Assembly (NCBI RefSeq): GCF_003001675.1
Contig: NZ_PVYW01000001.1
Location: 496,001 to 560,000 of the forward strand
Direction: 5' to 3'
Length of the DNA stretch: 64,000 nucleotides
Source: Cohnella sp. SGD-V74
Lineage (GTDB): Bacteria; Bacillota; Bacilli; Paenibacillales; Paenibacillaceae
The number at the start of each line of letters is the position of its first letter. The first letter of the stretch is position 1. Positions 21,113-35,968 of this stretch are shown piece after piece. The position numbers were made by a program, and so were the translations under genes. The notes under the pieces were generated by a model, which was not told the DNA's origin, made no database searches, and saw only the letters and a program-made list of their open reading frames with translations.

Positions 21113-22156
21113 TCAGGGAGCCAGGCTTTCCAGCACGTCCTCGACGATTTGCCGGTTGGCGATAATTCCGGTATACAGCCAGCTGGAATTGGCCGGATAT
21201 TCGTGGACGTTGCCGTTTTTGACCGCTTTGACGCTCTGCCAGATCGGGTCCTTGAGCGCCTCCGACCCGGTGGCGGCGTCGCTGTTGATCAGGAAAATAT
21301 GGTCGGCGTCCAGCTCGGTCAGCGCCTCCAGCGAGACGGATTTCCAGATGCCGCCCTCGCCCTTGGAGATGCGCTCGACAAGCTCCGGCACGGCCAATCC
21401 GAGATCGCGGTACAGCACGTCGCCGCTGGACTGGTTGTCGCTGACCATCCAGAACGTTTTGGACACGAGCCAGATGGCCGTGGCGGAAGGACGCTTGCCT
21501 TCGTACGCCGCGTCGATCTTCTCGCGGGCGACCCGCAATTCCTCATCGTACGAGTCCAGCACCGACTGGGCTTCCTCTCCCTTGCCGAGCACCTCGCCGA
21601 TCTTGAGCAGCGCCTTGCGCCAGTCCGTATTCACTTCCTGGCCGAGGGCGTAGGTCGGGGCGATTTTGGCGTACGTATCGTATTTGCCGTCGGCGATCAG
21701 CGCCTCGTCCCCGATCAGAATCAAGTCCGGAGCGAGGCTGGTCACCGCTTCGAACGGAAGGTCGTGCGGAACCGTCTGAACGTCCGCCAGCTCCTCCTGC
21801 AAATATCCCATAGGCGAACCGCCGACCGACCACTGGGCTACCGGCTCGACGCCGAGCGCCACCAAGTAGTCTTCCAGATAAGACCCCAGCACGCGCTGGG
21901 GCTTGGCGGGCACAACCACCTCATGTCCGAGCGGATCGACCAGCGTCCGCTCCGTCTGCTCGTCCTCCTGAGGCTCGGCTTCCGGAGAAGCGGCCTCCTG
22001 CTCTTGCGAAGGAGCCGCCTGACCTGTACCGGCCGGTTCGGTCGCTCCGGCGTCCCCCGCTTTATCGTTATTGCCGCCGCAAGCCGCAAGCAGCATCACC
22101 GTCATCGCTGCGGCGACCAACGCATACAGCAATCTGTTTCTTCTTTTCCAACCCAT
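21113..22156 (-). CDS. Siderophore-binding lipoprotein (FecB/FhuD-type)
   Basis: A 347-residue iron-complex receptor. The signal ends LLAAC (Cys26), followed by a linker rich in Ala, Glu and Gln. The mature part has the helical-backbone binding fold: LGHEVVVPAKPQRVLGSY, then ALGVEPVAQW, LAPDLILIGD and the C-terminal GNVHEYPANSSWLYTG. The promoter region carries a Fur-box-like sequence. It is the last gene of the iron cluster, downstream of the Btr-like regulator, and could deliver cargo to the two FecCD permeases further upstream. Confidence 0.92.
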   Translation of the reverse strand: MGWKRRNRLLYALVAAAMTVMLLAACGGNNDKAGDAGATEPAGTGQAAPSQEQEAASPEAEPQEDEQTERTLVDPLGHEVVVPAKPQRVLGSYLEDYLVALGVEPVAQWSVGGSPMGYLQEELADVQTVPHDLPFEAVTSLAPDLILIGDEALIADGKYDTYAKIAPTYALGQEVNTDWRKALLKIGEVLGKGEEAQSVLDSYDEELRVAREKIDAAYEGKRPSATAIWLVSKTFWMVSDNQSSGDVLYRDLGLAVPELVERISKGEGGIWKSVSLEALTELDADHIFLINSDAATGSEALKDPIWQSVKAVKNGNVHEYPANSSWLYTGIIANRQIVEDVLESLAP

Positions 22157-22198
22157 CCTTCGTAACTCCTCCCGATTCCATAAACTGCCCCACTTAGA

Positions 22199-22218
22199 TG
22201 AGATCGATTCTCATTATC
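22199..22218 (-). promoter_or_regulatory. Fur box before siderophore lipoprotein gene
   Basis: GAGATCGATTCTCATTATC (22200-22218) agrees with the 19-base Fur consensus at 14 positions and contains the strong half ATTCTCA. It is 45-60 bases upstream of the lipoprotein start, so iron repression by Fur is expected. Confidence 0.7.
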
Positions 22219-22256
22219 ATCGGACAATCTTATTTTATCAGGATGAATGCGGCCGT

Positions 22257-23903
22257 CTATGGATTAAAGTCATTCCTTTCATGCACAAAGACGCACGGGC
22301 CGCCGCCTGCCCTTCCGTGCTTCAGCAGCAGCTCTCTTTGCAGCTCCAACTGCTTGATCATCGACAGCATGTCCGCGGAATGGAACAGCTGCCGGTCGAC
22401 AAAGTAAATACGATTGTTGCGATACGCCTCGATCGAGCTCCAAACCGGGTGACGCATCATACGAGCGACCCACGCCTCGCTGTCGGAGGTGAACGGATAG
22501 CAGACGAACATATGGTCCGCCGCATACTCCGGCAACTGTTCCATCCGCAGTTCGGTAATCATCCCCTTGCCCATGACGTGACGGCGAACGCTGTCCGGGG
22601 GCTCCAGCTCCATCGCCCGATACAGGTTGTACCCCCCGCGTCCGTGAAACTCGCTGAATACCCAGATGCTGTCGGGACTGAGCTCGTAGAGGCCGACCGT
22701 CTCGCCAGGAATGATAATATCGGCGATCTCCTCCCGAATCCTCTTCCCCCGCTCCATATAACGCGACACGCAGGCTTCCGCCTCCGCCCGCTTGCCGAGA
22801 GCGTCCGCCAGACGGCGCAAGCGCTCGACCGGGTCTCCGTACGGAACGACCATCGTCGGCGCGACCGCCTGCAGCTTGCCGATCAGCTCCGCGCCGAGCC
22901 ATAGCGGCGCGACGATCAATTCCGGGTCCAGATCGATAACCGGCTGCACAGACGTCCGCCCCACGTCGACCAGATCCCGCACTTCCTCCCTCAGCAGAAA
23001 ATGTTTGCCCAGCCCGCCGAAGTAGGAAGCTCCGACCGGCTTTACGCCGAGCGCGAGCAGGCTGCCGATCCAATCGTAGATGACGACCCGCTTCGGCTCG
23101 CTCAAGTAAGCCTTCGGCGAGAAGCCGGTCGCCTGCTTAAACTTGCGGCTCAAATACAGGCCGTTCGAGTAACCGACATTGCGGGCGATCTCGTCCAGAT
23201 TGTCGCGGGTAAGCAGAAGCTGCTCCTTCGCCTTGCGAATGCGGATGCCGGCCAAATAGTCGGCGAAGCCGATGCCCGTCTCCTGTTTGAACAGGCCGGA
23301 GAAGACGCGCGGATGGAAGCCGGCCAGCGCCGCCATCGCATCCCTCGTAATCTCTTCGTTGTAATGCTGCTGCAAATACGAGGTCACCATGTGGATCGCC
23401 GTTCGGTGATCCGGAGCCGCGGCAGGACTGCCGGCTGCCGGGCTTTGCTCCCTCAACCGCAGCAGCAGCTCGTACAGCAGCATCTCCCTGCGCATGAGCT
23501 TAATGTCGTCGGTATCCGTCGAAGCGGCCAGAATGTCCCGAACAAGCTCCGCCGTCCGATAGGAAGCGCCGGTCTCGATCTCGCCGTCCGGCAGCCAGCG
23601 GTTCGTCCGTTCCCGGTAGACGCCTTCTTCGCCCGCCGCTTCGCTGCGGCGGACGATGGAGAAGCGCACGCAAGCGACTTCCAGATGGCGTTTATCGGCC
23701 GCCTGCATTTCCGCGAACCGGTCCGGATTGCAGAAGACGATCGTTCCCGGCGTCATCATCCATTGCTCCCCGTCGATCGCAAGCCGGCCTTGGCCTCCAA
23801 GGGCGGCGAACAGACAGTAGCCGTCCGTCCAGCGTCTGTCCGCCCCGTCCGCCGCTTGCAGCACGGTCCGCCATGCGCCCGTGCACGTATATAATTCATC
23901 CAT
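22257..23903 (-). CDS. AraC regulator fused to a siderophore-binding domain (Btr-like)
   Basis: A 548-residue two-part regulator. Residues 1-150 are an AraC-type cupin-like sensor region, about 165-270 the double HTH (ITRDAMAALAGFHPRVFSGLFK, EIARNVGYSNGLYLSRKFKQ, TGFSPKAYL). From about 275 to the end there is a FecB/FhuD-type binding fold (RVVIYDWIGSLLALGVKPVG, LDPELIVAPLWLG) with no signal peptide, so the whole protein is cytoplasmic. This is the architecture of Bacillus Btr, which activates bacillibactin uptake genes when the binding domain holds the ferric siderophore. It lies between the two permeases and the lipoprotein gene it probably controls. Confidence 0.93.
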   Translation of the reverse strand: MDELYTCTGAWRTVLQAADGADRRWTDGYCLFAALGGQGRLAIDGEQWMMTPGTIVFCNPDRFAEMQAADKRHLEVACVRFSIVRRSEAAGEEGVYRERTNRWLPDGEIETGASYRTAELVRDILAASTDTDDIKLMRREMLLYELLLRLREQSPAAGSPAAAPDHRTAIHMVTSYLQQHYNEEITRDAMAALAGFHPRVFSGLFKQETGIGFADYLAGIRIRKAKEQLLLTRDNLDEIARNVGYSNGLYLSRKFKQATGFSPKAYLSEPKRVVIYDWIGSLLALGVKPVGASYFGGLGKHFLLREEVRDLVDVGRTSVQPVIDLDPELIVAPLWLGAELIGKLQAVAPTMVVPYGDPVERLRRLADALGKRAEAEACVSRYMERGKRIREEIADIIIPGETVGLYELSPDSIWVFSEFHGRGGYNLYRAMELEPPDSVRRHVMGKGMITELRMEQLPEYAADHMFVCYPFTSDSEAWVARMMRHPVWSSIEAYRNNRIYFVDRQLFHSADMLSMIKQLELQRELLLKHGRAGGGPCVFVHERNDFNP

Positions 23904-24008: not shown

Positions 24009-25013
24009 TTACGACTTCGCTTTCTCTCTCCGCATAAGCAAATACAGGAAAAACGGCGCTCCGATCCCGGCCGTAAACACGCCTGCGGGAATGTCGAGAG
24101 GCTGGAACAGCGTTCTGCCGGCCAGATCGGACAACAGCAGCAGATTGGCGCCGATCAGCGCGGATACCGGAATGATTACCGCATGCGATCGTCCGGCGAT
24201 TCTCCTCGCCATATGAGGCGCCAGCAGCCCAATAAAGGAAAGCGTGCCGGCTATGCCTACAGCCGCTCCCGCCAAGGCGACGCTGATTCCGATAAGGATG
24301 ATGCGATGAAGCTGAAGCCGGCTTCCCAGACCGATGGCCGCGGCGTCGCCGAGCGACTGCACGTTCAATTCCTTGGCATAGAGCAGCGAGAGCGGCAAAA
24401 ATAACGCAACCCACGGCCATAGCGCCTGAATGTACGTCCAGTTGGTGCCGTAGACGCTTCCCGTCATCCAGTTCAGCACCTGAGCCGCGAGATAAGCCGG
24501 GCCGCTGATCAGCAGGAACATCGTGATTGCGCCGGCCGCCGTGGAGATGCCGATTCCGATCAGCACGAGCCTCATCGGCGATACGCCCTTGCTCCAAGCC
24601 AGCACGTAGTTGATCGCGGCCGCGACGAAAGCGCCGGCAATCGCGACGACCGGAATCCAGTGAACGCTGTATCCCTGGAACAGCGTCATGAAGGCGACTG
24701 CGGCGACCGAAGCGCCTCCCGTCACCCCCATCAGATCGGGCGAAGCGAGCGGATTGCGAACGACGCCCTGGAGCAGCGCCCCGGACACCGCCAGCGCCGC
24801 TCCAACCAGCAGAGCCGCCATGATTCTTGGCATCCGGAGCTTCATGACGATCAGGTCGCTGCCCTGGTCGTTCCTTCCGATCAGAGACAGGACGACCTCC
24901 TTGAGGGGAACTCCCACTCCTCCTATCGACAGACAGACAAGCGCGGTCAACGCCGTTACAACGGTTAACGACAACAGCAGGTACATCGTCCTGCGCGAAT
25001 TCCGCCTACTCAT
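24009..25013 (-). CDS. Siderophore ABC transporter permease, FecCD family
   Basis: A 334-residue membrane protein with about nine hydrophobic segments. Recognisable family parts are LRMPRIMAALLVGAALAVSGALLQ, NPLASPDLMGVTGGA and, near the end, GTLSFIGLLAPHMARRI, which carries the loop contacting the ATPase. The first codon overlaps the end of the preceding permease gene by eight bases, so the pair is translationally coupled and builds a heterodimeric pore. No ATPase gene lies in the cluster. Confidence 0.95.
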   Translation of the reverse strand: MSRRNSRRTMYLLLSLTVVTALTALVCLSIGGVGVPLKEVVLSLIGRNDQGSDLIVMKLRMPRIMAALLVGAALAVSGALLQGVVRNPLASPDLMGVTGGASVAAVAFMTLFQGYSVHWIPVVAIAGAFVAAAINYVLAWSKGVSPMRLVLIGIGISTAAGAITMFLLISGPAYLAAQVLNWMTGSVYGTNWTYIQALWPWVALFLPLSLLYAKELNVQSLGDAAAIGLGSRLQLHRIILIGISVALAGAAVGIAGTLSFIGLLAPHMARRIAGRSHAVIIPVSALIGANLLLLSDLAGRTLFQPLDIPAGVFTAGIGAPFFLYLLMRREKAKS

Positions 25014-26043
25014 GCTTCCTCCTTCTCGCGACGCGGATCAGAAACGGAACGCCGATCAGCGCCGTCGCGACCCCTACGGGAACTTCCTTCGGCATCAGGA
25101 CGAATCGCGAGGCGAGATCGGCCGTAACCAGAAGAATGGCGCCCGTTATCGCGCAATAAGGAATGAGCCAGCGGTGGTCGTTGCCGACGAGCGCCCTGCA
25201 CAGGTGCGGCACGACGAGGCCAACGAACGCGATCGGACCGGCGATGGCGACGGAGCTGCCCGCGAGGAGCACGACGGCGACCGCCGCCGCGGCCCGGGAG
25301 ATCAACAGTCTCTGACCGAGGCTCTTGGCGTTGTCGTCGCCGAGCGCCATGACGTTCAGCGATCCCGACAGCAGCATCGCCAGCGCCAGTCCCGCCAGCA
25401 TGTAGGGAAGAACGTCCGCCAGGTGCTCCAGCTTCCTGCCCGAGACGGAGCCGATCATCCAGAACAAGGCGGATTCCAGCGATTGCTTGTGGAGAAGCAT
25501 GAGCCCCGACGTAGCCGACGACGCGAAAGCCGCGATCGCGGCTCCGGCCAAGGTCAGCCTGACCGGCTCGAAGCCTCCCCGTTCGCGGGCGCCGATCGCA
25601 TAGACGAACGCTGCCGCCGCGAGCGCGCCCGCGAACGCGATCCAGATCATGCCGCCGAGCGTCAGCGAAGAGCCGAAGGCGATCAGCCCAACCACGACGA
25701 ACAGCGACGCGCCCGAGTTAATGCCCAGCACCGACGGCGACGCCAGCGGATTTTTCGTGACGACCTGCATGACCGCTCCCGCAACGGCAAGGCTGGCTCC
25801 CGTCGCAAGCGCCACGAGCGCCCGGGGCACCCGGGTCGTCGTCAGGATCAGATGGTCGTTGGAACCGTCGAAATGGCGGTAGGATTGCCACAGATCCGCG
25901 ATTCCGTAATTGTGAAGACCGAGCAATATGCTCAATAAGACGCTTGCCAGCAGCAGAACTGCGCCGACGAACAAGCCGGCCGCCCTCTGCCTGCGGTTAT
26001 GCAAACGAAACGCGTTTTCCTGCGATTGCTTCAACTGTCTCAC
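25006..26043 (-). CDS. Siderophore ABC transporter permease, FecCD family
   Basis: A 345-residue FecCD permease: TRVPRALVALATGASLAVAGAVMQ, NPLASPSVLGINSGAS and GPIAFVGLVVPHLCRAL are the family landmarks, with about nine hydrophobic segments. It begins 63 bases after the lipoprotein gene that stops at 26107 and overlaps the next permease gene by eight bases. The order lipoprotein-permease-permease is that of feuABC-type loci that borrow a YusV/FhuC ATPase encoded elsewhere. Confidence 0.95.
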   Translation of the reverse strand: MRQLKQSQENAFRLHNRRQRAAGLFVGAVLLLASVLLSILLGLHNYGIADLWQSYRHFDGSNDHLILTTTRVPRALVALATGASLAVAGAVMQVVTKNPLASPSVLGINSGASLFVVVGLIAFGSSLTLGGMIWIAFAGALAAAAFVYAIGARERGGFEPVRLTLAGAAIAAFASSATSGLMLLHKQSLESALFWMIGSVSGRKLEHLADVLPYMLAGLALAMLLSGSLNVMALGDDNAKSLGQRLLISRAAAAVAVVLLAGSSVAIAGPIAFVGLVVPHLCRALVGNDHRWLIPYCAITGAILLVTADLASRFVLMPKEVPVGVATALIGVPFLIRVARRRKHE

Positions 26044-26106: not shown

Positions 26107-27129
26107 TTATTTCACTTCGAAGTATGCCACCAGCTCGTCCAGCAGCAGGTTCGCCGCTTCATAGCCTCCGGCCGTATTCCAGATCGCTTCGTCCACCTGG
26201 ATCACCTTGTTGTTCTTGGCTACGCTCAAGTTTTTGAACAGCGGATCGTTCATCCACTCTTCCACCACTTTGGACGCGTCCGTAGAGCCCGGATTTTCCG
26301 ATACGAAGTAGAACATGACGTCCCCGTCCATATTCGGAATGTTTTCCTTGGTCATAATTTCGATGAACGCGTCTTTGTCCTGCGCCTCAGGCCGGGCGAT
26401 TCCAAGCTGGTTCAGCAGCACTCCGGCGAACGTTTGCTTCTGATAGATTCGCACCTGAGCGGCGGAGAAACGGACCAGGGACACTTTCGTCGCCGCCTTG
26501 TCGCCGAGCTTGGCCTTCACTTCCTCAACGCGCTTGTCGAAGTCGGCCATCGCCTTCTCGCCTTCCGCTTTTTTGTTGACCGCTTCGGAGTACAGCTCGA
26601 AGTTTTCCTTCCAGTTGCCGCCCAGATCGGCCGCGAATACGGTCGGCGCGATCGCCTTTAATTGCTCGTAGATTTTTTCCTGTCTGACTTTGTTGCCGAT
26701 AATCAAATCCGGTTCGAGGCTGGCGATCAGCTCGACGTTGGGCTGAAGCTCGTCCCCTACCGCCGTTACGCCTTCCATTTCGTCCTTGATATGGTCGTAC
26801 CACGGATCTCCGATCCAGGATTGCACCGCCCCGACCGGCTTGATGCCAACCGCCAGAAGCGCCTCCGTTCCTTCGTTGGTCAGAATGACGACGCGCTTCG
26901 GCGTGCCGACCAGCGTCTCTTCTCCCATCGCATGCTTGACGACGCGCGGCGCCTCGCTCGCGGATGCTTGCGGCGAGGACGCGGACGGCGACGCGACGCT
27001 GCCGGACGATGGCGACGGGCTTCCGGTGGCGGAACTATTGTTTGCCGCTCCGCACGCGCCGAGCAGCAAGGACAGACCTAGCAATAAAGTGGCGAACGTA
27101 AGAGCTCTCGATTTGACTTGCCATTGCAT
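26107..27129 (-). CDS. Siderophore-binding lipoprotein starting inside the AraC frame
   Basis: A 340-residue receptor starting at ATG 27129 with AGGGAG eight bases before it. The signal peptide MQWQVKSRALTFATLLLGLS leads to lipobox LLGAC (Cys26), then a Ser/Pro/Ala linker and a FecB/FhuD fold (VKHAMGEETLVGTPKRVVIL, GIKPVGAVQSW, LEPDLIIGNK). Its own promoter (27181-27209) and Fur box lie upstream, so it is very probably made as a separate protein whatever the AraC frame does. The two FecCD permease genes follow. Confidence 0.88.
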   Translation of the reverse strand: MQWQVKSRALTFATLLLGLSLLLGACGAANNSSATGSPSPSSGSVASPSASSPQASASEAPRVVKHAMGEETLVGTPKRVVILTNEGTEALLAVGIKPVGAVQSWIGDPWYDHIKDEMEGVTAVGDELQPNVELIASLEPDLIIGNKVRQEKIYEQLKAIAPTVFAADLGGNWKENFELYSEAVNKKAEGEKAMADFDKRVEEVKAKLGDKAATKVSLVRFSAAQVRIYQKQTFAGVLLNQLGIARPEAQDKDAFIEIMTKENIPNMDGDVMFYFVSENPGSTDASKVVEEWMNDPLFKNLSVAKNNKVIQVDEAIWNTAGGYEAANLLLDELVAYFEVK

Positions 27130-28086
27130 GTGTATGACTCCCTCTCTACCCAGTTGATAATGATTCTCATGTTCATTAACAATATAGCCGGATGAGCCGA
27201 TCTTCGCAATGGAGGATCCGGACAAGCGAAATGGATTATGGCGACGCCCCTGAACGCTGCCGCCCATATCCTTGAAGCGAATCGGCGAAACCCCCTCCGT
27301 TTTCTTGAACAATCGGCCGAAATAGTAGCTGTCCGCGTAGCCTACCCCTTCCGCGATGTCTTTAAGGGTGAAATCCGTCGTCAGCAGCAGCTCCTTCGCC
27401 TTGTCCATGCGCACGCGAATGAGATAGTCGATCGGGCTCGTGCCCGTTCTGCTCTTGAACAGCCGCTGCAAGTGCCGCGGATGGCAGTCGAGCAGTCCGG
27501 CGAGAGATTCGAGCGTAATCGGCTCCTTATAGTTCTCGTGGAGGTAGCGAACCGCCTGCGCGACCGGGTCGGGCTTAAGCGCCGCCACTCCCTGATCGCC
27601 GAATTGCCGCAGCATTTCGTGCACGAAGCGATAAAATAAAGCTTTCGCATACAGCTTGTCCTCCGGCCTCTCCGGCCGCCAGCTTCCTTCCATCCGAACG
27701 AGCAGATCGAACAGGGCGAGCGGTTCCCCCGGCTTGAAGTCGTATTGCAGGCCGAACGGCCTCTCCTTCTCCAGCAGATTTACGAGCTCTTGGCGGCAAG
27801 GCGGCGATAAATTCGCCTTGTACAGGATGAGATAATACTCGAGCGGATCCTGCGCCTCGATATCGAGGCGAGTTCCTTTGCCCCCGTGCAGCACGTGAAA
27901 CCGCTCCACAGATTTGCTCTCCCCGTCCAAACCGACGATCGCGCTTCCCCGAACGATATAGATAAAAGCGCTGGACGGCAGCCGATAAGCCCGCAGAGCC
28001 GTCCCCCGCTCCATATGCGTATGACGCAGGTCCATCACCTGGACGAACGCTTGGTTCCACAACAAGACATGGTCTCGATAATTCAC
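26107..28086 (-). CDS. AraC regulator reading through in frame into a siderophore lipoprotein (659-codon frame)
   Basis: One uninterrupted frame. Residues 1-165 are an AraC sensor region, about 178-278 the double HTH (ITLESLAGLLDCHPRHLQRL, DIAEGVGYADSYYFGRLFKK, EGVSPIRFKD). Residues about 280-319 are encoded by what looks like an ordinary intergenic region with promoter, Fur box and ribosome site. From Met320 a complete lipoprotein with its own signal follows. AraC proteins of this type normally stop near residue 280. A one-base shift just after the HTH would meet a TAA near 27241. So this is either a true fusion, a recent loss of the AraC stop, or a base error. A Fur box lies 45 bases upstream. 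Confidence 0.6.
   Translation of the reverse strand: MNYRDHVLLWNQAFVQVMDLRHTHMERGTALRAYRLPSSAFIYIVRGSAIVGLDGESKSVERFHVLHGGKGTRLDIEAQDPLEYYLILYKANLSPPCRQELVNLLEKERPFGLQYDFKPGEPLALFDLLVRMEGSWRPERPEDKLYAKALFYRFVHEMLRQFGDQGVAALKPDPVAQAVRYLHENYKEPITLESLAGLLDCHPRHLQRLFKSRTGTSPIDYLIRVRMDKAKELLLTTDFTLKDIAEGVGYADSYYFGRLFKKTEGVSPIRFKDMGGSVQGRRHNPFRLSGSSIAKIGSSGYIVNEHENHYQLGREGVIHMQWQVKSRALTFATLLLGLSLLLGACGAANNSSATGSPSPSSGSVASPSASSPQASASEAPRVVKHAMGEETLVGTPKRVVILTNEGTEALLAVGIKPVGAVQSWIGDPWYDHIKDEMEGVTAVGDELQPNVELIASLEPDLIIGNKVRQEKIYEQLKAIAPTVFAADLGGNWKENFELYSEAVNKKAEGEKAMADFDKRVEEVKAKLGDKAATKVSLVRFSAAQVRIYQKQTFAGVLLNQLGIARPEAQDKDAFIEIMTKENIPNMDGDVMFYFVSENPGSTDASKVVEEWMNDPLFKNLSVAKNNKVIQVDEAIWNTAGGYEAANLLLDELVAYFEVK
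27155..27209 (-). promoter_or_regulatory. Sigma-A promoter and Fur box inside the AraC-lipoprotein frame
   Basis: On the minus strand TTGCGA (27204-27209) and TATATT (27181-27186) are separated by 17 bases. Downstream of the -10, TGATAAT-G-ATTCTCA (27155-27169) matches the 7-1-7 Fur motif at 13 of 14 positions and would cover the transcription start. This drives the lipoprotein and permease genes. Confidence 0.8.
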
Positions 28087-28129: not shown

Positions 28130-28144
28130 TGAAAATCATTCTCA
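28130..28144 (-). promoter_or_regulatory. Fur box before the AraC gene
   Basis: TGAAAAT-C-ATTCTCA matches the 7-1-7 Fur consensus TGATAAT-N-ATTATCA at 12 of 14 positions. It lies 44 bases upstream of the AraC start, so the regulator itself should be induced by iron shortage. Confidence 0.72.
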
Positions 28145-28270: not shown

Positions 28271-29161
28271 ATGAAACAGCTCGCTATAGAAACGAAGGGT
28301 TTGAAGAAACGCTTCGGCAAGCAAGTCGTTCTGGACGGGGTCGATCTGTCCGTGCCATCCGGCATCATCTATGCGCTGCTCGGACCGAACGGCGCGGGCA
28401 AGACGACGCTGATCAATATTCTGTCTACTTTGACGGCCGCCGATGCGGGAGAGGCGAGGGTAGCGGGGTACGACGTTGCGGCGGAGAAAACGAAAGTGAA
28501 AATGTCCATCAGCTTGACCGGACAGTTCGCGGCCGTGGACGAAATGCTGACCGGGGAAGAAAATGTGCGGATGATCTGCCGTCTGTCCGGATTATCCCCG
28601 TCGGAGTCGAAGACACGTACGGCGGAGCTGCTGCAGCGGTTCGAGCTCCAGTCGGCAGCAGGCAAGCGGGTGAAGTCGTATTCGGGCGGCATGCGCAGAA
28701 GGCTTGATCTCGCCGTCAGCCTTGTCGTCGATCGTCCGGTGCTGTTTCTGGACGAACCGACGACCGGCCTGGATACGATAAGCCGGCAGACGCTATGGAA
28801 GATCATCCTCCAGTTGAAAGAACGCGGCATTACCGTCTTCCTGACGACGCAATACTTGGAGGAGGCCGACCAATTGGCCGATACGATCTCGGTCATCGAC
28901 GGCGGACGGATCGTCGCGACCGGAACGCCCGCAGAGCTGAAAGCCAGAGTCGGCGAGGAAGTGATCGAGCTGCGCGACCGCAACGAGGCGCTGCTGCGGA
29001 CGGTGTCCACGTCCGGCACGATCGCCGACGTCCGTCAGGCGCTGTCCGAGCTTGCTCCCCTGCTCCCGCCGGACGCGCGCGTAAGCCTGCGCAAGCCGAG
29101 CATGGACGATGTGTTCCTGGCTCTTACATCCCAACCGCGTTTGGAGGAATCGATCTCATGA
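28271..29161 (+). CDS. ABC exporter ATP-binding protein, DrrA-like
   Basis: A 296-residue ATPase of the daunorubicin-resistance (DrrA/CcmA-like) group. Walker A is GPNGAGKT (38-45), the signature YSGGMRRRLDLA sits near 138 and Walker B is VLFLDEPTTGLD. The C-terminal extension (about 225-296) is typical of DrrA. Ribosome site AAAGGGG precedes the ATG. The stop overlaps the permease start as ATGA, so the two are coupled. Export substrate unknown; a drug or lipid-like molecule is expected from the family. Confidence 0.94.
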   Translation: MKQLAIETKGLKKRFGKQVVLDGVDLSVPSGIIYALLGPNGAGKTTLINILSTLTAADAGEARVAGYDVAAEKTKVKMSISLTGQFAAVDEMLTGEENVRMICRLSGLSPSESKTRTAELLQRFELQSAAGKRVKSYSGGMRRRLDLAVSLVVDRPVLFLDEPTTGLDTISRQTLWKIILQLKERGITVFLTTQYLEEADQLADTISVIDGGRIVATGTPAELKARVGEEVIELRDRNEALLRTVSTSGTIADVRQALSELAPLLPPDARVSLRKPSMDDVFLALTSQPRLEESIS

Positions 29162-29949
29162 ATCTCTCTTCCCGTTCGGCGCCCGCTTCGGCTTCCTTCC
29201 TCGTCGCCAACGCCGTCTTCATCGGCCGCAGCATTCGCCTCAGCCTGCGAAACGTCGAGGCTCTGCTCATGGCCGTTATGCTTCCAGTGATGCTTATGCT
29301 GCTGTTCACCTATGTATTCGGCGGCGCGCTCGATCCGAGCGGCAACTATGTCAACTACGTCGTTCCGGGCATCATCCTGCTGTGCGCCGGCTTCGGATCT
29401 TCCAGCACAGCCGTCGACGTCTCCATGGACATGACGAACGGCATCATCGACCGCTTCCGCACGATGCCGATTCACAGCATGGGCGTCGTGACCGGTCATG
29501 TCGCCGCCAGCCTCGCCCGCAATCTGCTCGCCACCGCGATCGTCATCGGCGTCGCCTTCCTCGTCGGCTTTCGCCCCAATGCCGGCCTGACGGAGTGGCT
29601 GGCCGCGCTCGGCGTCATCGTGCTGTTCATTCTCGCCTTCACGTGGCTGTTCGCCGCGATCGGACTCGTCGCGGGCAGCCCATCGGCGGCCAGCGGCTAC
29701 GGCTTCGCCCTGCTGTTCCTCCCCTACCTGTCCAGCGCGTTCGTGCAGACGGAGACGATGCCGGGCTGGCTGCAAGGCGTCGCCAACCACCAGCCGATTA
29801 CGCCGGTCATCGAGACGATCCGCGGCCTGCTGACCGGCACGCCGATCGGCGATCAGGCCTGGCTGGCCGTCGGCTGGTGCGCGCTGCTCATCGCAGTCGC
29901 CATCGCGTGGTGCGGCATCTCGTTCCGCCGCCGCGCCGGACGCAGATAA
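29158..29949 (+). CDS. ABC-2 type exporter permease, DrrB-like
   Basis: A 263-residue membrane protein of the ABC-2 family. It starts at the ATG of the ATGA overlap with the ATPase gene (MNLSSRSAP). About six hydrophobic segments are present, with the family stretch PVMLMLLFTYVFGGALDP after the first and the conserved FAAIGLVAGSPSAASGYGF in the second half. A longer open frame covering the same bases in another register is a shadow. Works with the preceding ATPase as a homodimeric or 2+2 exporter. Confidence 0.93.
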   Translation: MNLSSRSAPASASFLVANAVFIGRSIRLSLRNVEALLMAVMLPVMLMLLFTYVFGGALDPSGNYVNYVVPGIILLCAGFGSSSTAVDVSMDMTNGIIDRFRTMPIHSMGVVTGHVAASLARNLLATAIVIGVAFLVGFRPNAGLTEWLAALGVIVLFILAFTWLFAAIGLVAGSPSAASGYGFALLFLPYLSSAFVQTETMPGWLQGVANHQPITPVIETIRGLLTGTPIGDQAWLAVGWCALLIAVAIAWCGISFRRRAGRR

Positions 29950-30020
29950 ACCGATAAGCTCGCCTCTCGAGCTCGACCAGGGCCGGACCCGGCTGCGAGA
30001 GTTAAGCGCGCCTCATGAAC

Positions 30021-30839
30021 TTATTGACCGAGGCCGGGCCCAGGCGCCTTCCGAGTATCCAAATAATGCTGAACGCCGTCCAGAATGCGCTCCAGGCCGA
30101 AATCGAAGTCGTCGCCGACCGTGCTCGTCTGTTCGTTCTCCCCTGCGTAGGTGCCCGACATGACGATCGGATACAAGTGAGGATAGCTGTCCGGCTTGAC
30201 GAGCTGCTTCAGCGCCGCGCTGTACTCCAACCCGTTGAACGTATCCGGATTGGCCCCCGCCTTAAGCGCCTGGCCGAAATCGCGGTTGATCAATCCGACG
30301 GAGCGGCTGTAGCTGCTCAGAAGCAGCAGGATCGACATCTTCTCATGCTCGTTCAGCGGAAAAGTGCGCATCGTCCCCAACATCCAATCGATGATTTTCA
30401 GCGTGTTCGGCATGATCGGGATCGAGGTCACCGGAATATCGCCAAACCAGGGATGCTTGACGAACACCTCCACACACGCCCACACGTACGCCCGCATCTC
30501 GGCCCGCCAATCTCCGTCCTTTCTCTCCGGGAGCTCCAGCTCGCTTACGGAATCGTACATCAGCATCAGAAGATCGTCTTTGCTCGCGATATATCGATAC
30601 AGCGACATCGTCGTAAAACCAAGAGACGCCGCGACCCGGCTCATCGATACGGCGGCAAGGCCGTCCCGGTCGGCCAGCGCGACTGCCGCGTCGACGATTT
30701 TCTTGACGCTCAGCTCTCCTTTCGGTCCCCGCGTCGAAGGCTTCACCAGCCCCCACCCGAGCTTCGCTCCGTTCGGCAGCTTCTCCAGCGCCTCTTCGTT
30801 TAATCCGTCCCCATTGTTTCCGTCGCGCATCTGTTCCAT
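30021..30839 (-). CDS. TetR-family regulator of the exporter
   Basis: A 272-residue regulator with an N-terminal TetR HTH (VSMSRVAASLGFTTMSLYRYIASKDDL, about 68-95 from this start) and a C-terminal ligand domain of the TetR_C tetracyclin-repressor-like type. The start at 30839 has AAGGAGAG five bases upstream; a longer frame to 30947 runs into the operator. It is convergent with the exporter genes. The exact 13-base sequence shared by its own promoter and the exporter promoter indicates that it represses both. Confidence 0.9.
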   Translation of the reverse strand: MEQMRDGNNGDGLNEEALEKLPNGAKLGWGLVKPSTRGPKGELSVKKIVDAAVALADRDGLAAVSMSRVAASLGFTTMSLYRYIASKDDLLMLMYDSVSELELPERKDGDWRAEMRAYVWACVEVFVKHPWFGDIPVTSIPIMPNTLKIIDWMLGTMRTFPLNEHEKMSILLLLSSYSRSVGLINRDFGQALKAGANPDTFNGLEYSAALKQLVKPDSYPHLYPIVMSGTYAGENEQTSTVGDDFDFGLERILDGVQHYLDTRKAPGPGLGQ

Positions 30840-30892
30840 CGTTCTCTCCTTGAAGTGTTCGCGAGCCCCCGCCAAGGAACTGCGCAAAAAGT

Positions 30893-30914
30893 GTATACGA
30901 TGTAAACAGTATAC
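30893..30914 (-). promoter_or_regulatory. Operator/promoter of the TetR gene
   Basis: GTATAC-N10-GTATAC forms a 22-base dyad that includes TGTAAACAGTATA, the reverse complement of the exporter promoter element at 28220-28232. TATACT inside it can serve as -10 on the minus strand, so binding would block transcription of the TetR gene (autorepression). Confidence 0.7.
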
Positions 30915-30991
30915 CACAATCGCCGGAGGGAAAATTGAACCGCTCACCGAGAATGGCCGGGAGTCCCGCTCCCGGCCATTCCGATTTTCGC

Positions 30992-33496
30992 TTATCGAAC
31001 CGCGTACTTCTCTCGCAGGAACTGTCCGGTATGCGACGCTTCGACCGCGGCGACCTCTTCAGGCGCCCCTTCGGCGACGACGCGCCCTCCGCCCGCACCG
31101 CCCTCCGGACCGATATCGACGACCCAATCCGACTGCCAGACGAGGTCCATATTGTGCTCCACCAGCACGACCGTGTGGCCGGCCTCGACCAGCTTCGAGA
31201 GCAGCACCTGAAGCTGCCGCACGTCTCCCGGGTGAAGCCCCGTCGACGGCTCATCCAGCAAGTACAGCGTGCGCTGCTTCGTCTTCTTGCCCAGCTCCTT
31301 CGCCAGCTTGAGGCGCTGCCCCTCGCCGCCCGACAGCGTGCGAACCGATTGCCCCCACTTCAAGTAACCGAGGCCGACCTCGCACAGCAGCTCGGTCGTC
31401 TCCGCGATTTTCGGCCTGCCGGCAAGAAAGGACAAGCTCTCCTGAACCGTCATATCGAGAATGTCGGAGATCGTGCGCCCTTCGTACTGGACGCTCAGCA
31501 CCTCCTCTTTGAACCTTCTGCCGCGGCAGGCGGGACAGCGCACCTCCAGCTCGGGCAGGAAATGCATATGAACGGATACGACGCCGAGTCCCTCGCAATG
31601 CTCGCAGCGTCCTCCCGGCGTATTGAACGAGAAATGCTTGGCCGTCAGCTTGGCTTGCTTCGCTTGCGGCAGGCCGGCGAACCAGTTCCGCATATGCGTA
31701 TACACGTCGGAGTAAGTGGCGACGTTCGAGCGCTGCATCCGCGACAGAGGCGTCTGGTCGACCGTGATCAGTTCGGGAACCGCCTCCCATCCGTCTATGC
31801 CCGCGCAGCCGGGGAACGGACCGCCCGATCTCCCCGACGCGGCCAGCAGGTCGAACAGCAGCGTCGACTTGCCCGAACCGGACACTCCGGTGACGGAGAT
31901 CTGGCAGCCGAGCGGCAGCGACACGGTAATGCCCTGCAGATTGCGCAAGTTTGCGCCGCGAATCGTCAGCCGCTCCCCGCTCCCTTTCCGTCTCGGCGGA
32001 GCCGCCTGCACGCCTTCGTCCCTGAAGATCGCCCCGGTCACCGAGCGCGGGTCCGCGATCAGCTCCTCCAATCGTCCCTGTCCGACGACGGTTCCTCCGA
32101 AGCTCCCGGCTCCCGGACCGATGTCGATAATATGGTCCGCTGCCCGCATCACTTCCTCGTCGTGCTCGATGACGAGAACGGTATTGCCCAAGTCCCGAAG
32201 CTGCTTCAATACCCGGATCAGCCCTCTCGTATCCCGGGGATGCAGCCCGGCGGTCGGCTCGTCCAGAATGTACAGCACGCCGGTCAGCCCCGAGCCGAGA
32301 ATGGACGCCAGCCGCAGCCGCTGCGCCTCGCCTCCGGACAGCGTAACCACCTGCCGGTTCAGCGACATATAGCCGAGTCCGACGTCGACGATGCGCTTCA
32401 TCCGGACGATCATATCGTGCAGCAGCGCCTCGGTGATGTCCGATTGTCCGGGCGTCAGTCCGCTTCTGAGCGTCTGCGTCCAGTCCAGCGCGTCCGCGAT
32501 TGCCCGGGAAGAGATCTCGCCAATGGAAGCGCCGTTCACCTTCACCTGAAGGCTCGACTTCTTCAGCTTCTCTCCGCCGCATTCCGTACAGGTCCGCTCG
32601 ATGAACAGCTCCGCTCCTCCGCCCTCGCTGCCCTTCTCCCGATATTTTCTCCAGATTCCCGTAACGACGCCTTCGAACTTGCCTTGGCCGACCGCCTTCG
32701 GCGGCTTGACGTCGGGGAAGCGGCTGGAGAACCGCTCGCTCTCGACGCCGTAGAACAGCAGGTCCCGCTGCGCTTCCCCAAGCGTCTTGATCGGGGCATG
32801 CTCGTCGAACTCGAAGCCGTAATGGTTGGCCGCCGCCTTCAAAATACTCAAGCTGTATTCGACGATAAAGTCGTACCAGATCCGCACGCCCCCTCCGCGA
32901 ACGCTGAGTTCCTCGTCGAAGACGGCCGTCAGATCGAGCGACGCGACATGGCCGAGCCCGCTGCAGCCTTCGCATGCCCCTTCCGGCTTGTTGAACGAGA
33001 AGTGCGTCATCGTCAGCTTCTCGAGGGCATGGCCGCATCTCGGACAGGGTTCGCTCAGGCGCATGTCCGCTTCCTCGTCTTCGTCCGGAATCCCGTAGCC
33101 TCCCGCTCCGTCCGGAGCGGAGACGACCGTCGTCCCGCATCGGGGGCACGGTCGTTCTCCCAGCTTGGAGAATACGATTCTGAGCAGCGTGTAGACGTCC
33201 GTCACCGTGCCGATCGTCGAACGCGGATTGCGATTGGTCGCATGCTGGCCGACTCCGATCGACGGCGACAGCCCTTCGATGGAATCGACCTTCGGCTTGG
33301 CCACCGAATCCGACACCATGCCCATCGACTCCATGTACTGCCGCTGGCACTCCCTCTGCAGCGTGTCCATCGCGAGCGTCGACTTGCCTGAGCCCGACGG
33401 TCCGGTCACGACGACCAGCTTGTGCTTCGGAATGTCGAGAGAGATGTTTTTCAGATTGTTCTCCCGCGCTCCCTTGATCCGAATCGTTCCTTGCAT
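30992..33496 (-). CDS. Short UvrA paralog (UvrA2/DrrC-like)
   Basis: An 834-residue twin-ABC protein, about 100 residues shorter than housekeeping UvrA. The first Walker A is GPSGSGKST (32-40), and the second ABC unit has GVSGSGKST. Two signatures [12 protein letters not shown] and [12 protein letters not shown] are intact, as are the zinc-module cysteines (CPRCG, CEGCSG, CEHCEG, CPACRG). The start at 33496 has AGGAGG seven bases upstream. UvrA2/DrrC-type proteins bind DNA or drug-DNA adducts and confer resistance without needing UvrB. Its place beside a DrrAB-like exporter and TetR supports that role; whether it still takes part in excision repair is open. Confidence 0.9.
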
Positions 33497-33799
33497 CTTC
33501 ATTCCTCCTCGCAGGGATGCTTAGCCTAGATTAACAACTCTATGCTACAACATTCATGCAAGTCTTAAAGTTCGACGCCCTCCCCTTGCGCAGCATCGGT
33601 TAGCGAACGCTTCAAGACCGTCATGGTGATTGAAGCTTTTACGGCAAGGTACAACGGCTTTTCACCCCGAACTCATACTTTTTTAACAGATTCAAATAAA
33701 AGTTCGGCAAGAAATCTAATAGATTTGTGAGAAAATAGCCTCAAATGACAACAGGAAAAAGATACCAATAGACGAAATCGCAGTCAGGAGAGGTGACCC
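33497..33799. other. Intergenic region between the UvrA paralog and the GGDEF/EAL gene
   Basis: A stretch of 303 bases between divergent genes, AT-rich from 33650 on. It contains an inverted repeat CCGAACT...AGTTCGG (33667-33708) and a perfect dyad AAATCTA-A-TAGATTT (33712-33726). These are possible regulatory sites for the plus-strand gene; no gene or clear -35/-10 pair is visible. Confidence 0.5.
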
Positions 33800-35968
33800 A
33801 TGACGCCCTATAAAGTGATCATCGTGGACGACTCCAGCTTGGTGCGCAGCATTTTGACCAAGCTGTTTGCCAAGGACGAAAGCTTTATGATAGTTGGAGA
33901 AGCAAGAGACGGGTTGGAGGCAATCGAGATGATCGTCTCGAAGCGCCCCGATCTCGTCACGATGGATATCGAGATGCCGGTCATGGACGGATTGACGGCA
34001 TTAAAACAGATCATGCACGACTGCCCCGTTCCCGTCATTATGGTCAGCAGCTACACGGACGAAGGGTCCGACTACGCGATGGAATCGATCGACAGCGGGG
34101 CGTCCGACTTCTTTTTCAAGGATTTGCTGCTGCAGCCGTCCGGCGACGGACTTCACGAGGACAATTTCCTGCTCCGCTGCAAAGTCGCGCTGAAACAGAA
34201 GGACTCGCTTATGTCCGACCAACTGTTCAAAATTCAGGAGCAGAACCACCAGTTGATTTTGGAGTCTTTCTCCCACTTGGTGAAAATCGAGGAAGATTTG
34301 GCGATCGTGCACGAAGAACTGCGGGGGACGCTGCGGGGGCAACGAGGTCTTATCCTGAAACTGTGCCGTAAGGACGGCAAATACATATGCATGTACGGGG
34401 AAGGCGAGCTGCTGCATTTGTTCGGAATGCCCGCGTCCCATCTGGTCGGCAAAGACAGCGTCGAATTGTTTTCCCATGAGCCCGCTTGTTATCAAGAGCC
34501 CTTCTACAATCAAGCCTGGAACGGGGAGAAGCTCGTCAGCTATGAGATGCAATGGAAGGGGCTGTATTTGCTCACCCATCTTCGGCCCGTCTTCCGCGGC
34601 GGAGAAATCATGAGCATCCTGATGATCAGCTTCGACATCAGCCCGCAGCGCCAGATGGAGCAGCGGGTCGTCTTCCTGCGGGACAACGACGCGCTGACCA
34701 AGCTGCCCAACCGCGCTTCTCTCGTGCGCTGGCTGGACGATACGATTCGCCAGCCCTACTCGTCTCTGACGATCGCCTCGATCGACCTGGATCACTTCAA
34801 AGTCGTCAATGAAGTATTCGGCCGCAATGTAGGCGACCGCATTCTGCAAATCGTCGCCAGGCGTATCGAAAACTGCGGGCTCTACGAGAAACAGTTCTAT
34901 ACCGCGCGCGTCGGCGGAGACGAATTCATATGCGCCTATACGTCAAGCAACGAGAAGTCCAGCCGTCTGCTGGCCGAAGCGATCTTCCAAAGCCTGATGA
35001 AGCCGATCTCGCTGGACGATCAGCAGCTGCCGGTGCGGATCAGCATGGGCATATTTTCGAGAGAAACGAGCGGATTCGGCGCCTACGAGCTGCTGGCCAA
35101 CGCGGAGAACGCGATGTATTTCGCCCGCAAGCAGGGCGGCCATCAGATGAAGTTCTGGGAGCCTTCGCTGAACGAGCAGATCAAGCGCCGGGTCCAGATC
35201 GAGCTGCAGCTCAAAAGGGCGATAGAGCGACGGGAGTTCCGGCTCGTCTATCAGCCCCAATACGATCGCAAGAACGGAAGAGTCATCGGCTTCGAAAGCC
35301 TTATTCGCTGGAACAACCCGATTCTCGGCCAAGTGCCACCGGTCGAATTCATCCCGATCGCCGAGGAATCGGATTGCATTATCGAGATCGGCGAATGGGT
35401 GCTGCAGCAGGCTTGCCTCTTCGGCAAGAAGCTGCACGCGGAGACTTGCGCGCCTATTAAAATCGCCGTCAATCTGTCCTCCAAGCAATTCGCGGACGAT
35501 CGTCTGTGCGATATCGTCAAACATATTTTGGCGAATACGGGGCTGAACCCCGGCTGCCTGGAGCTCGAAATTACCGAAAGCATGACGATGGACGTCCAGT
35601 CGACGCTCGCAACGATGCGCGAACTGAAGCAAATCGGCGTCAAGCTCGCCATGGACGACTTCGGCACCGGCTACAGCTCGCTCCGATGGATCAAGGAATT
35701 TCCGCTCGACTGCCTGAAGATCGACCGCTCCTTCATTATGGACATCTGCTCCAACGTGTACAATCACTCCATCGTCCGAACGATCACGGCCATGTCGGAC
35801 AGCCTGCAGCTGGAGATGATCGCCGAGGGCGTCGAAGACGAGGACACCGCGCAGATCCTGGACGGATTCGGCTGCACGATGCATCAGGGCTATTATTACA
35901 GCAAACCCGTCGAGGAGCACGAGGTGTTGGACGCCTACCTGTCTTTGACGAGGAACGATTACAGTTGA
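33800..35968 (+). CDS. Response regulator with PAS, GGDEF and EAL domains
   Basis: A 722-residue cyclic-di-GMP protein. Residues 1-115 are a receiver with Asp56, close to the CheB receiver (VSSYTDEGSDYAMESIDSGA). A helical linker and a PAS-like region (about 185-285) follow. GGDEF at 372-376 is intact, but no RxxD inhibitory site precedes it. The EAL domain (about 470-712) has ESL at 499-501 in place of EAL, with the catalytic landmarks ITES, DDFGTGYSSL (619-628) and AEGVED, so phosphodiesterase activity is plausible. Both making and breaking of c-di-GMP are possible; the net direction cannot be read from sequence. AGGAGAGGTG precedes the start. No partner kinase lies nearby. Confidence 0.94.
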   Translation: MTPYKVIIVDDSSLVRSILTKLFAKDESFMIVGEARDGLEAIEMIVSKRPDLVTMDIEMPVMDGLTALKQIMHDCPVPVIMVSSYTDEGSDYAMESIDSGASDFFFKDLLLQPSGDGLHEDNFLLRCKVALKQKDSLMSDQLFKIQEQNHQLILESFSHLVKIEEDLAIVHEELRGTLRGQRGLILKLCRKDGKYICMYGEGELLHLFGMPASHLVGKDSVELFSHEPACYQEPFYNQAWNGEKLVSYEMQWKGLYLLTHLRPVFRGGEIMSILMISFDISPQRQMEQRVVFLRDNDALTKLPNRASLVRWLDDTIRQPYSSLTIASIDLDHFKVVNEVFGRNVGDRILQIVARRIENCGLYEKQFYTARVGGDEFICAYTSSNEKSSRLLAEAIFQSLMKPISLDDQQLPVRISMGIFSRETSGFGAYELLANAENAMYFARKQGGHQMKFWEPSLNEQIKRRVQIELQLKRAIERREFRLVYQPQYDRKNGRVIGFESLIRWNNPILGQVPPVEFIPIAEESDCIIEIGEWVLQQACLFGKKLHAETCAPIKIAVNLSSKQFADDRLCDIVKHILANTGLNPGCLELEITESMTMDVQSTLATMRELKQIGVKLAMDDFGTGYSSLRWIKEFPLDCLKIDRSFIMDICSNVYNHSIVRTITAMSDSLQLEMIAEGVEDEDTAQILDGFGCTMHQGYYYSKPVEEHEVLDAYLSLTRNDYS

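Follow-up and report, generated by a model that had tools for sequence, protein, structure and literature searches.

Regulators that join an AraC-type DNA-binding part to a siderophore-receptor domain are already known from Btr (YbbB) of Bacillus subtilis, whose gene has no internal signal peptide, promoter or receptor start and whose receptor is encoded by a separate gene. Lipoprotein receptors of the YfiY and SirA type are stand-alone genes. Genes that give two nested products from one frame, by way of an intragenic promoter and an in-frame internal start, are a general phenomenon, and AraC-type activators bind at the −35 element to tandem half-sites that are spaced by roughly two turns of the helix. 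In the present study, we analysed a window of 64,000 nt from Cohnella sp. SGD-V74 and, within it, one uninterrupted frame of 659 codons (26107..28086) that starts with GTG and encodes an AraC-type regulator, a linker, a lipoprotein signal and a siderophore-binding receptor; the frame lies on the minus strand, as do its sites and the two permeases described below. These data show that the joined frame is an old conserved family and that the DNA between its two domains is constrained both as protein and as promoter. The gene very probably has two products, a long regulator–receptor and a short lipoprotein receptor.

The N-terminal half of the 659-residue protein matches HTH_18 (AraC helix-turn-helix; residues 195–272, 27271..27504) with 77.8 bits against a Pfam cut-off of 33.6 and HTH_AraC with 66.3 bits against 26.6, which places it among the AraC/XylS regulators. 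The C-terminal half matches the Pfam siderophore-binding domain Peripla_BP_2 (residues 399–633, 26188..26892) with 102.5 bits against a cut-off of 27.5, as a siderophore receptor should, and its best solved relatives are 3tny and 3mwf, which are of the YfiY/SirA type. Between the halves lies an internal start, Met320 (ATG at 27129), followed by the n-region, hydrophobic stretch and lipobox that mark a lipoprotein (27052..27129); the lipobox residue Cys345 is invariant across 12 aligned sequences. A predicted structure, of middling quality (mean predicted local distance difference test score 68) and used for domain limits only, places a low-confidence helix at residues 326–342.

An earlier note on this DNA had recognized the single frame at this position, had described it as an AraC gene without a stop, had pointed to a G-run near 27250 in which a one-base indel would restore a TAA, and had allowed that all close relatives might have two separate frames. 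The single frame was seen correctly, but the relatives do not bear out a missing stop. Two proteins, P0001 from a Cohnella record (98% identical) and P0002 (84% identical), share the frame, as does the locus of Cohnella phaseoli (L009), so no indel is needed. A protein homologue search, whose length window favours joined genes, found 223 proteins and listed 120; among the matches listed, the lipobox lies mid-protein in all 115 of the 115 homologues longer than 600 residues, and the named long homologues come from Paenibacillus, Cohnella, Brevibacillus and near kin. A less biased count was made at the DNA level with two peptide patterns, both taken from the receptor half, and was based on the best 80 of 556 loci. 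Within 900 nt upstream, 53 of these 80 loci have an AraC part detectable by tblastn at 1e-5, a search that more distant AraC proteins or larger gaps would escape. Of the 53, 52 are a single open frame and none consists of two whole separate genes; the remaining locus, L072, has a frameshift within the receptor part. The remaining 27 loci have no detectable AraC part within this distance, and 25 of them are informative, as a contig end truncates L074 and the receptor of L066 is missing its 5′ part. Upstream of a further member of this group, L085, lies a 539-residue frame that resembles a Btr-type regulator (unscored), the closer look within the 27 having covered L058, L066 and L085. The 52 fused loci together with the window gene (L001), with L072 and L074 excluded, form the set of 53 orthologues used below.

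The joined build also extends well beyond the orthologues. This genome has 14 genes of the fused type, the window gene included, and the other 13 are 31–41% identical with it over the matched parts. A second paralogue group occurs in 27 genomes, this one among them, out of 118 from the same family, and every listed row is open over at least 653 residues with no stops, in a search whose E-value cut favours joined genes. At the class level 107 of 250 genomes gave a match, many of the matches listed being receptor only, and 12 joined loci inspected from four other families have the internal lipobox in ten cases and lack it in two. In 63 dereplicated linkers of 53 codons, stops were found in none in the gene frame, in 40 in frame +1 and in all 63 in frame +2; these genes had been preselected for an open frame, so that the zero is not unbiased and the comparison shows rather how easily a stop could emerge. 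Conservation in independent species thus rules out a lost stop or a sequencing error, and a young fusion is ruled out by the 52 of 53 loci, the paralogue groups and the other families together. The long regulator–receptor that the earlier note had raised as a read-through product is to be expected.

The junction itself carries every element that had been ascribed to it. The −35 element TTGCGA (27204..27209) and the −10 element TATATT (27181..27186) are separated by a 17-bp spacer (27187..27203) and match as a pair at 9 of 12 positions. They are followed by a Fur box, TGAGAATCATTATCA (27155..27169), which agrees with the 7-1-7 Fur consensus used for scoring at 13 of 14 defined positions and is read in-frame within EHENHYQ, and by a purine-rich Shine–Dalgarno-like sequence, AGAGGGAG (27138..27145), ahead of the internal ATG and its signal peptide with lipobox. 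Promoter prediction in this stretch gave four promoter-like sites compared with 0.9 in shuffled sequences, which is little proof when taken alone; the orthologues are more telling. In 53 of 53, TTG stands 17 bases ahead of TATATT (28), TATAGT (24) or TATGTT (1) with constant codon phase, and a Fur-like box with at least 12 of 14 matches is present in 52. Within the core codons of this box, 157 third positions are T and two are C, whereas codons for these amino acids in the rest of the genes have 3489 T and 3109 C. The suggestion that the lipoprotein can be made alone stands, with an internal Fur-type start that is conserved in the orthologues. In addition, of 105 fused genes 100 have a strict Shine–Dalgarno motif ahead of an internal start, compared with only 135 of 1384 other in-frame ATGs; the best-scoring internal start is ATG in 101 and GTG in four of the 105, by a score that is biased towards ATG. 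A further Fur box, TGAGAATGATTTTCA (28130..28144; 12 of 14), lies ahead of the AraC start in the predicted promoter region of the long product, where a box with at least 12 of 14 matches is found in 45 of 53 orthologues compared with approximately 0.2% of control windows. The gene thus carries the 7-1-7 box at its promoters that is expected of a Fur-regulated gene, and binding of Fur is predicted. The position of the box is not uniform among the paralogues: in L008, L089 and L091 a Fur-like box appears by eye over or between the −35 and −10 elements and not downstream of the −10, and in L095 the downstream Fur-like box is in a different codon phase.

Substitution rates in 169 close pairs show that the DNA between the AraC and receptor parts is under both kinds of constraint. 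Rates at codon positions 1, 2 and 3 are 0.111, 0.118 and 0.305 in the promoter spacer and 0.158, 0.111 and 0.336 in the stretch after the helix-turn-helix, and this third-position excess is the signature of coding. In contrast, the operator-like repeat described below, the −35, the −10 and the Fur box have flat rates of 0.068, 0.096 and 0.080. A separate analysis with 145 pairs agrees with this pattern, the close pairs being non-independent in both analyses. Here and in the anchored analysis of the repeat, the choice of −10 favoured TTG at −35; the count of 53 out of 53 promoters and the motif scan are free of this rule. Some 120 bp thus appear to combine the roles of operator, promoter, Fur box and ribosome site with that of a linker in the protein, and a constraint is visible for each role.

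Just upstream of the −35, within coding sequence, the conserved DNA is repeated in tandem at an offset of 22 bp (profile overlap of 0.69, compared with 0.43 for the runner-up), with its upstream half-site at 27231..27247 and its downstream half-site, which touches the −35, at 27209..27225. In 54 dereplicated fused genes, drawn from the 94 anchorable of 95 and covering several paralogue groups, mean identity is 0.585 at an offset of 22 compared with 0.19–0.30 at all other offsets from 12 to 40, and at least 9 of 17 positions match in 42 of the 54 at this offset and in at most three at any other. When each gene is anchored separately, none of the 29 offsets beats 22 in 10 of the 13 anchored genes of this genome, and among 10 genes from other families 22 alone comes out best in nine. 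The sequence of the half-site varies between paralogue groups and the offset remains constant; in the second paralogue group the half-site CGTCCATTG can be seen by eye twice in many members. A motif scan of L009–L088 and the whole window gave one match per fused locus (the 52, L072 and the window), and the same scan found the motif in none of the 27 receptor loci with no detectable AraC part, 25 of them informative. As a 22-bp tandem repeat abutting the −35 has the known geometry of AraC half-sites, we take it as a predicted operator, and its likely owner is the AraC protein of the same gene.

The surroundings of these genes also fit two products. This genome has 20 Btr-type genes, in which the AraC part and the receptor domain are joined with no signal, and a separate receptor gene lies within 3 kb of 19 of these 20, compared with none of the 14 fused genes (Fisher test, 1.1e-8, on a table filled by reading locus listings, with L120, whose AraC and receptor parts are in different frames, excluded, and with L130 assigned to the Btr type by eye on account of a chance lipobox inside its receptor domain). 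Among the 19 separate receptors, L106 and L119 have no recognized lipobox and L107 has an internal stop. With no receptor beside the fused genes and one beside all but one of the Btr-type genes, a fused gene appears to occupy the place of regulator plus receptor, which fits two products.

By their AraC parts, the fused genes fall into a single clade (ultrafast bootstrap 76), which includes a split gene, L095, and five genes with no signal, L130, L131, L132, L182 and L185. All five retain the joined frame. The entire signal is lost in L185, and in L182 the signal has decayed and the lipobox cysteine is replaced by histidine; relics of the repeat, the −35 and TATAGT can be seen by eye in L132, L182 and L185, and a separate receptor is close by in four of the five, L132 being the exception. 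Because these genes keep the joined frame, the long product seems to have been kept when the short one was no longer made from the gene, and the most likely history runs from a dual gene to a Btr-like regulator. The count of separate signal losses depends on the tree, as two methods place L130–L132 differently. The earlier note had suggested that the window gene and the neighbouring Btr-type gene (22257–23903) might be an early and a late stage of one fusion route. A late stage with no signal does exist, in the five genes above; an early stage is not supported for the window gene, and the neighbouring gene is ruled out as its late stage by lying on the opposite side of the AraC split and having a receptor of a different group.

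We therefore favour, as a reasonably probable whole, a dual-coding gene in which a Btr-like sensor–activator and a transport lipoprotein share one binding domain. According to this model, the upstream Fur-controlled start would supply a scarce long product, whose receptor domain would act as the siderophore sensor for its AraC part much as in Btr. With ferric siderophore bound, the long product would attach to the tandem repeats within the gene that encodes it and switch on the internal promoter. This promoter would drive the short lipoprotein receptor, together with the FecCD permeases at loci that have them downstream, and iron-loaded Fur would shut both starts. Sensor and transporter would share one binding domain and hence one specificity. 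The least certain step, granted two products, is where the long form acts. The 19-residue hydropathy maximum has a median of 1.74 in the internal signals and 2.22 in stand-alone receptors of this genome (14 compared with 26 genes; p 1.2e-5), and these weaker signals, together with the relatives that have none, incline us slightly towards a sensor that would work mainly from the cytoplasm.

Several observations weigh against this model or narrow it. A FecCD match lies downstream on the same strand at 43 of 52 orthologue loci, leaving nine with none, of which L042 ends just behind the gene; for the other 13 fused genes, covered by 12 stretches, there is a match at L003 and L139 only. FecCD permeases are thus ruled out as a general companion of the fused genes, and most paralogues must borrow a permease. 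The sister gene L095 (G000:C7:13700-16200) is split by a stop after the AraC part, and L092 has no recognizable −10. The repeat fails in L008, L089 and L091 of this genome and in L188 of another family, and in an unanchored search an offset of 22 is among the top four for only 8 of 14 genes of this genome, in two of which the repeat sits elsewhere in the linker. Of the internal signals of 105 fused genes, 101 pass 1.6, the usual hydropathy threshold for a membrane helix, which some other stretch also passes in 11 of the 105 proteins. The difference in hydrophobicity is smaller in the orthologue set (2.04 compared with 2.17; 53 compared with 25; p 0.004), and neither set is phylogenetically independent. 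Finally, both products, the owner of the repeat and a siderophore as the ligand are predictions from sequence.

Could the joined frame nevertheless be an artefact, caused by a hidden stop or a sequencing error, or an accident, in which the frame is open by chance and yields no long product? For the lipoprotein, the internal start and its promoter would be enough by themselves, and with stops in frame +1 in only 40 of the 63 linkers, open frames can arise by chance; however, the frame is kept in independent sequences from many species, the spacer shows codon periodicity and the relatives that have lost the signal keep the frame, which makes this extremely improbable. The repeat might also be the site of some other regulator, as its ownership is assigned by geometry only, but it accompanies the fused loci and is absent from the 27 receptor loci with no detectable AraC part, 25 of them informative, and it changes in sequence from one paralogue group to the next while the offset stays, which is what one would predict were each regulator to retain a site of its own; another owner is accordingly quite unlikely.

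The location of the long form leaves more room for doubt. It might be tethered, with the AraC part inside, the lipoprotein signal serving as a membrane helix and the receptor outside sensing the siderophore, a topology like that of CadC and ToxR. The hydropathy of 101 of the 105 internal signals would permit this, the model helix at 326–342 lies between two low-confidence linkers, and membrane-located DNA-binding regulators are described in passages of PMC11856585. Such tethering would create an outside-in circuit, in which a membrane-held long product reads the siderophore through the receptor domain of the short product and activates a promoter in its own coding sequence, so that copying this one gene would bring a new siderophore specificity. 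Against it, the invariant lipobox would let the lipoprotein peptidase sever the sensor from the regulator, the hydrophobicity of the signal falls short of that in stand-alone receptors, and relatives with no signal keep a joined regulator, for which the helix is therefore dispensable; we regard the tethered form as possible but unlikely, and the circuit built on it as equally doubtful. If the lipoprotein signal peptidase did cut an inserted long form, the gene would instead encode a polyprotein, giving a receptor and an AraC protein with a C-terminal membrane stub, and the frame would only couple their amounts. The lipobox in all of the long homologues among the matches listed agrees with such a cut, but the polyprotein does not explain why the joined frame outlasts loss of the lipobox in L182 and L185, nor why split pairs are so rare, L095 being the only one seen, and it is very unlikely.

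Behind the fused gene in the window lie two FecCD-type permeases recognized by Pfam, one directly downstream (25006..26043) and a second at 24009..25013, then the Btr-type gene and another receptor lipoprotein. These last two (21113–23903) make up a second regulator–receptor pair, which adjoins the permeases of the fused gene. On the other side, the region 28271–33502 encodes a DrrA-like ATP-binding cassette ATPase (312.3 bits against a cut-off of 312.45), a permease-like frame that matches nothing in NCBIfam, a TetR regulator and a UvrA-like protein above one UvrA cut-off, a grouping which we take to resemble drug self-resistance clusters; a response regulator with GGDEF and EAL parts follows at 33800–35968. 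Elsewhere, 65 sites match the siderophore-receptor family in this single 8.2 Mb genome, and L143 (G000:C20:161000-172500) is a tandem pair of fused genes with nearly identical AraC parts and different receptor parts, as if receptor halves had been swapped.

Domains of this kind have been counted together before. In passages of a 2026 survey of siderophore clusters from five genera (PMC13293324), 229 of 6,023 Peripla_BP_2 genes have a co-occurring domain, which is HTH_18 in 98.7% of these; this co-occurrence is tabulated and, in these passages, not discussed, and the words AraC, fused and fusion are absent from the main text. The same source gives Paenibacillus its highest ratio, 29.43 receptor genes per siderophore cluster. 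In public records, such genes are named either as regulator or as receptor, which means that one of the two predicted products is overlooked. We found no description of such a gene in searches of open-licence PubMed Central papers, a limited scope that makes this a weak negative. As proposed here, a single gene would perform two tasks that are divided between two genes in Btr-type systems, an arrangement that would ensure a common siderophore for sensor and receptor. The 14 copies in one genome would explain in a simple way how scavengers, Paenibacillus among them, gather many receptors.

Compared with described systems, the window gene is closest to Btr: in both, a single protein has an AraC DNA-binding part ahead of a siderophore-binding domain, and a siderophore would be the expected co-activator. 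It differs by the signal and lipobox between the domains, so that its architecture is not of the Btr type and only its working may be Btr-like; nor is it Btr itself, as it reaches only 97.4 bits against the cut-off of 900 for the Btr equivalog NF049932, with its best stretch at residues 175–271. The receptor half resembles the YfiY and SirA lipoproteins, but instead of standing alone it is encoded by the 3′ half of a regulator gene. CadC, ToxR and TfoS would share the topology of the long form if it were inserted; CadC and ToxR belong to a different DNA-binding family from AraC, and in the window gene the helix is a lipoprotein signal with a lipobox, which some relatives lack altogether. As far as open-licence papers show, what is new is a dual-coding junction that contains the likely operator of the encoded protein: compared with other internal-start genes, the intragenic stretch adds a Fur box and a tandem repeat that resembles the operator of the protein read through it.

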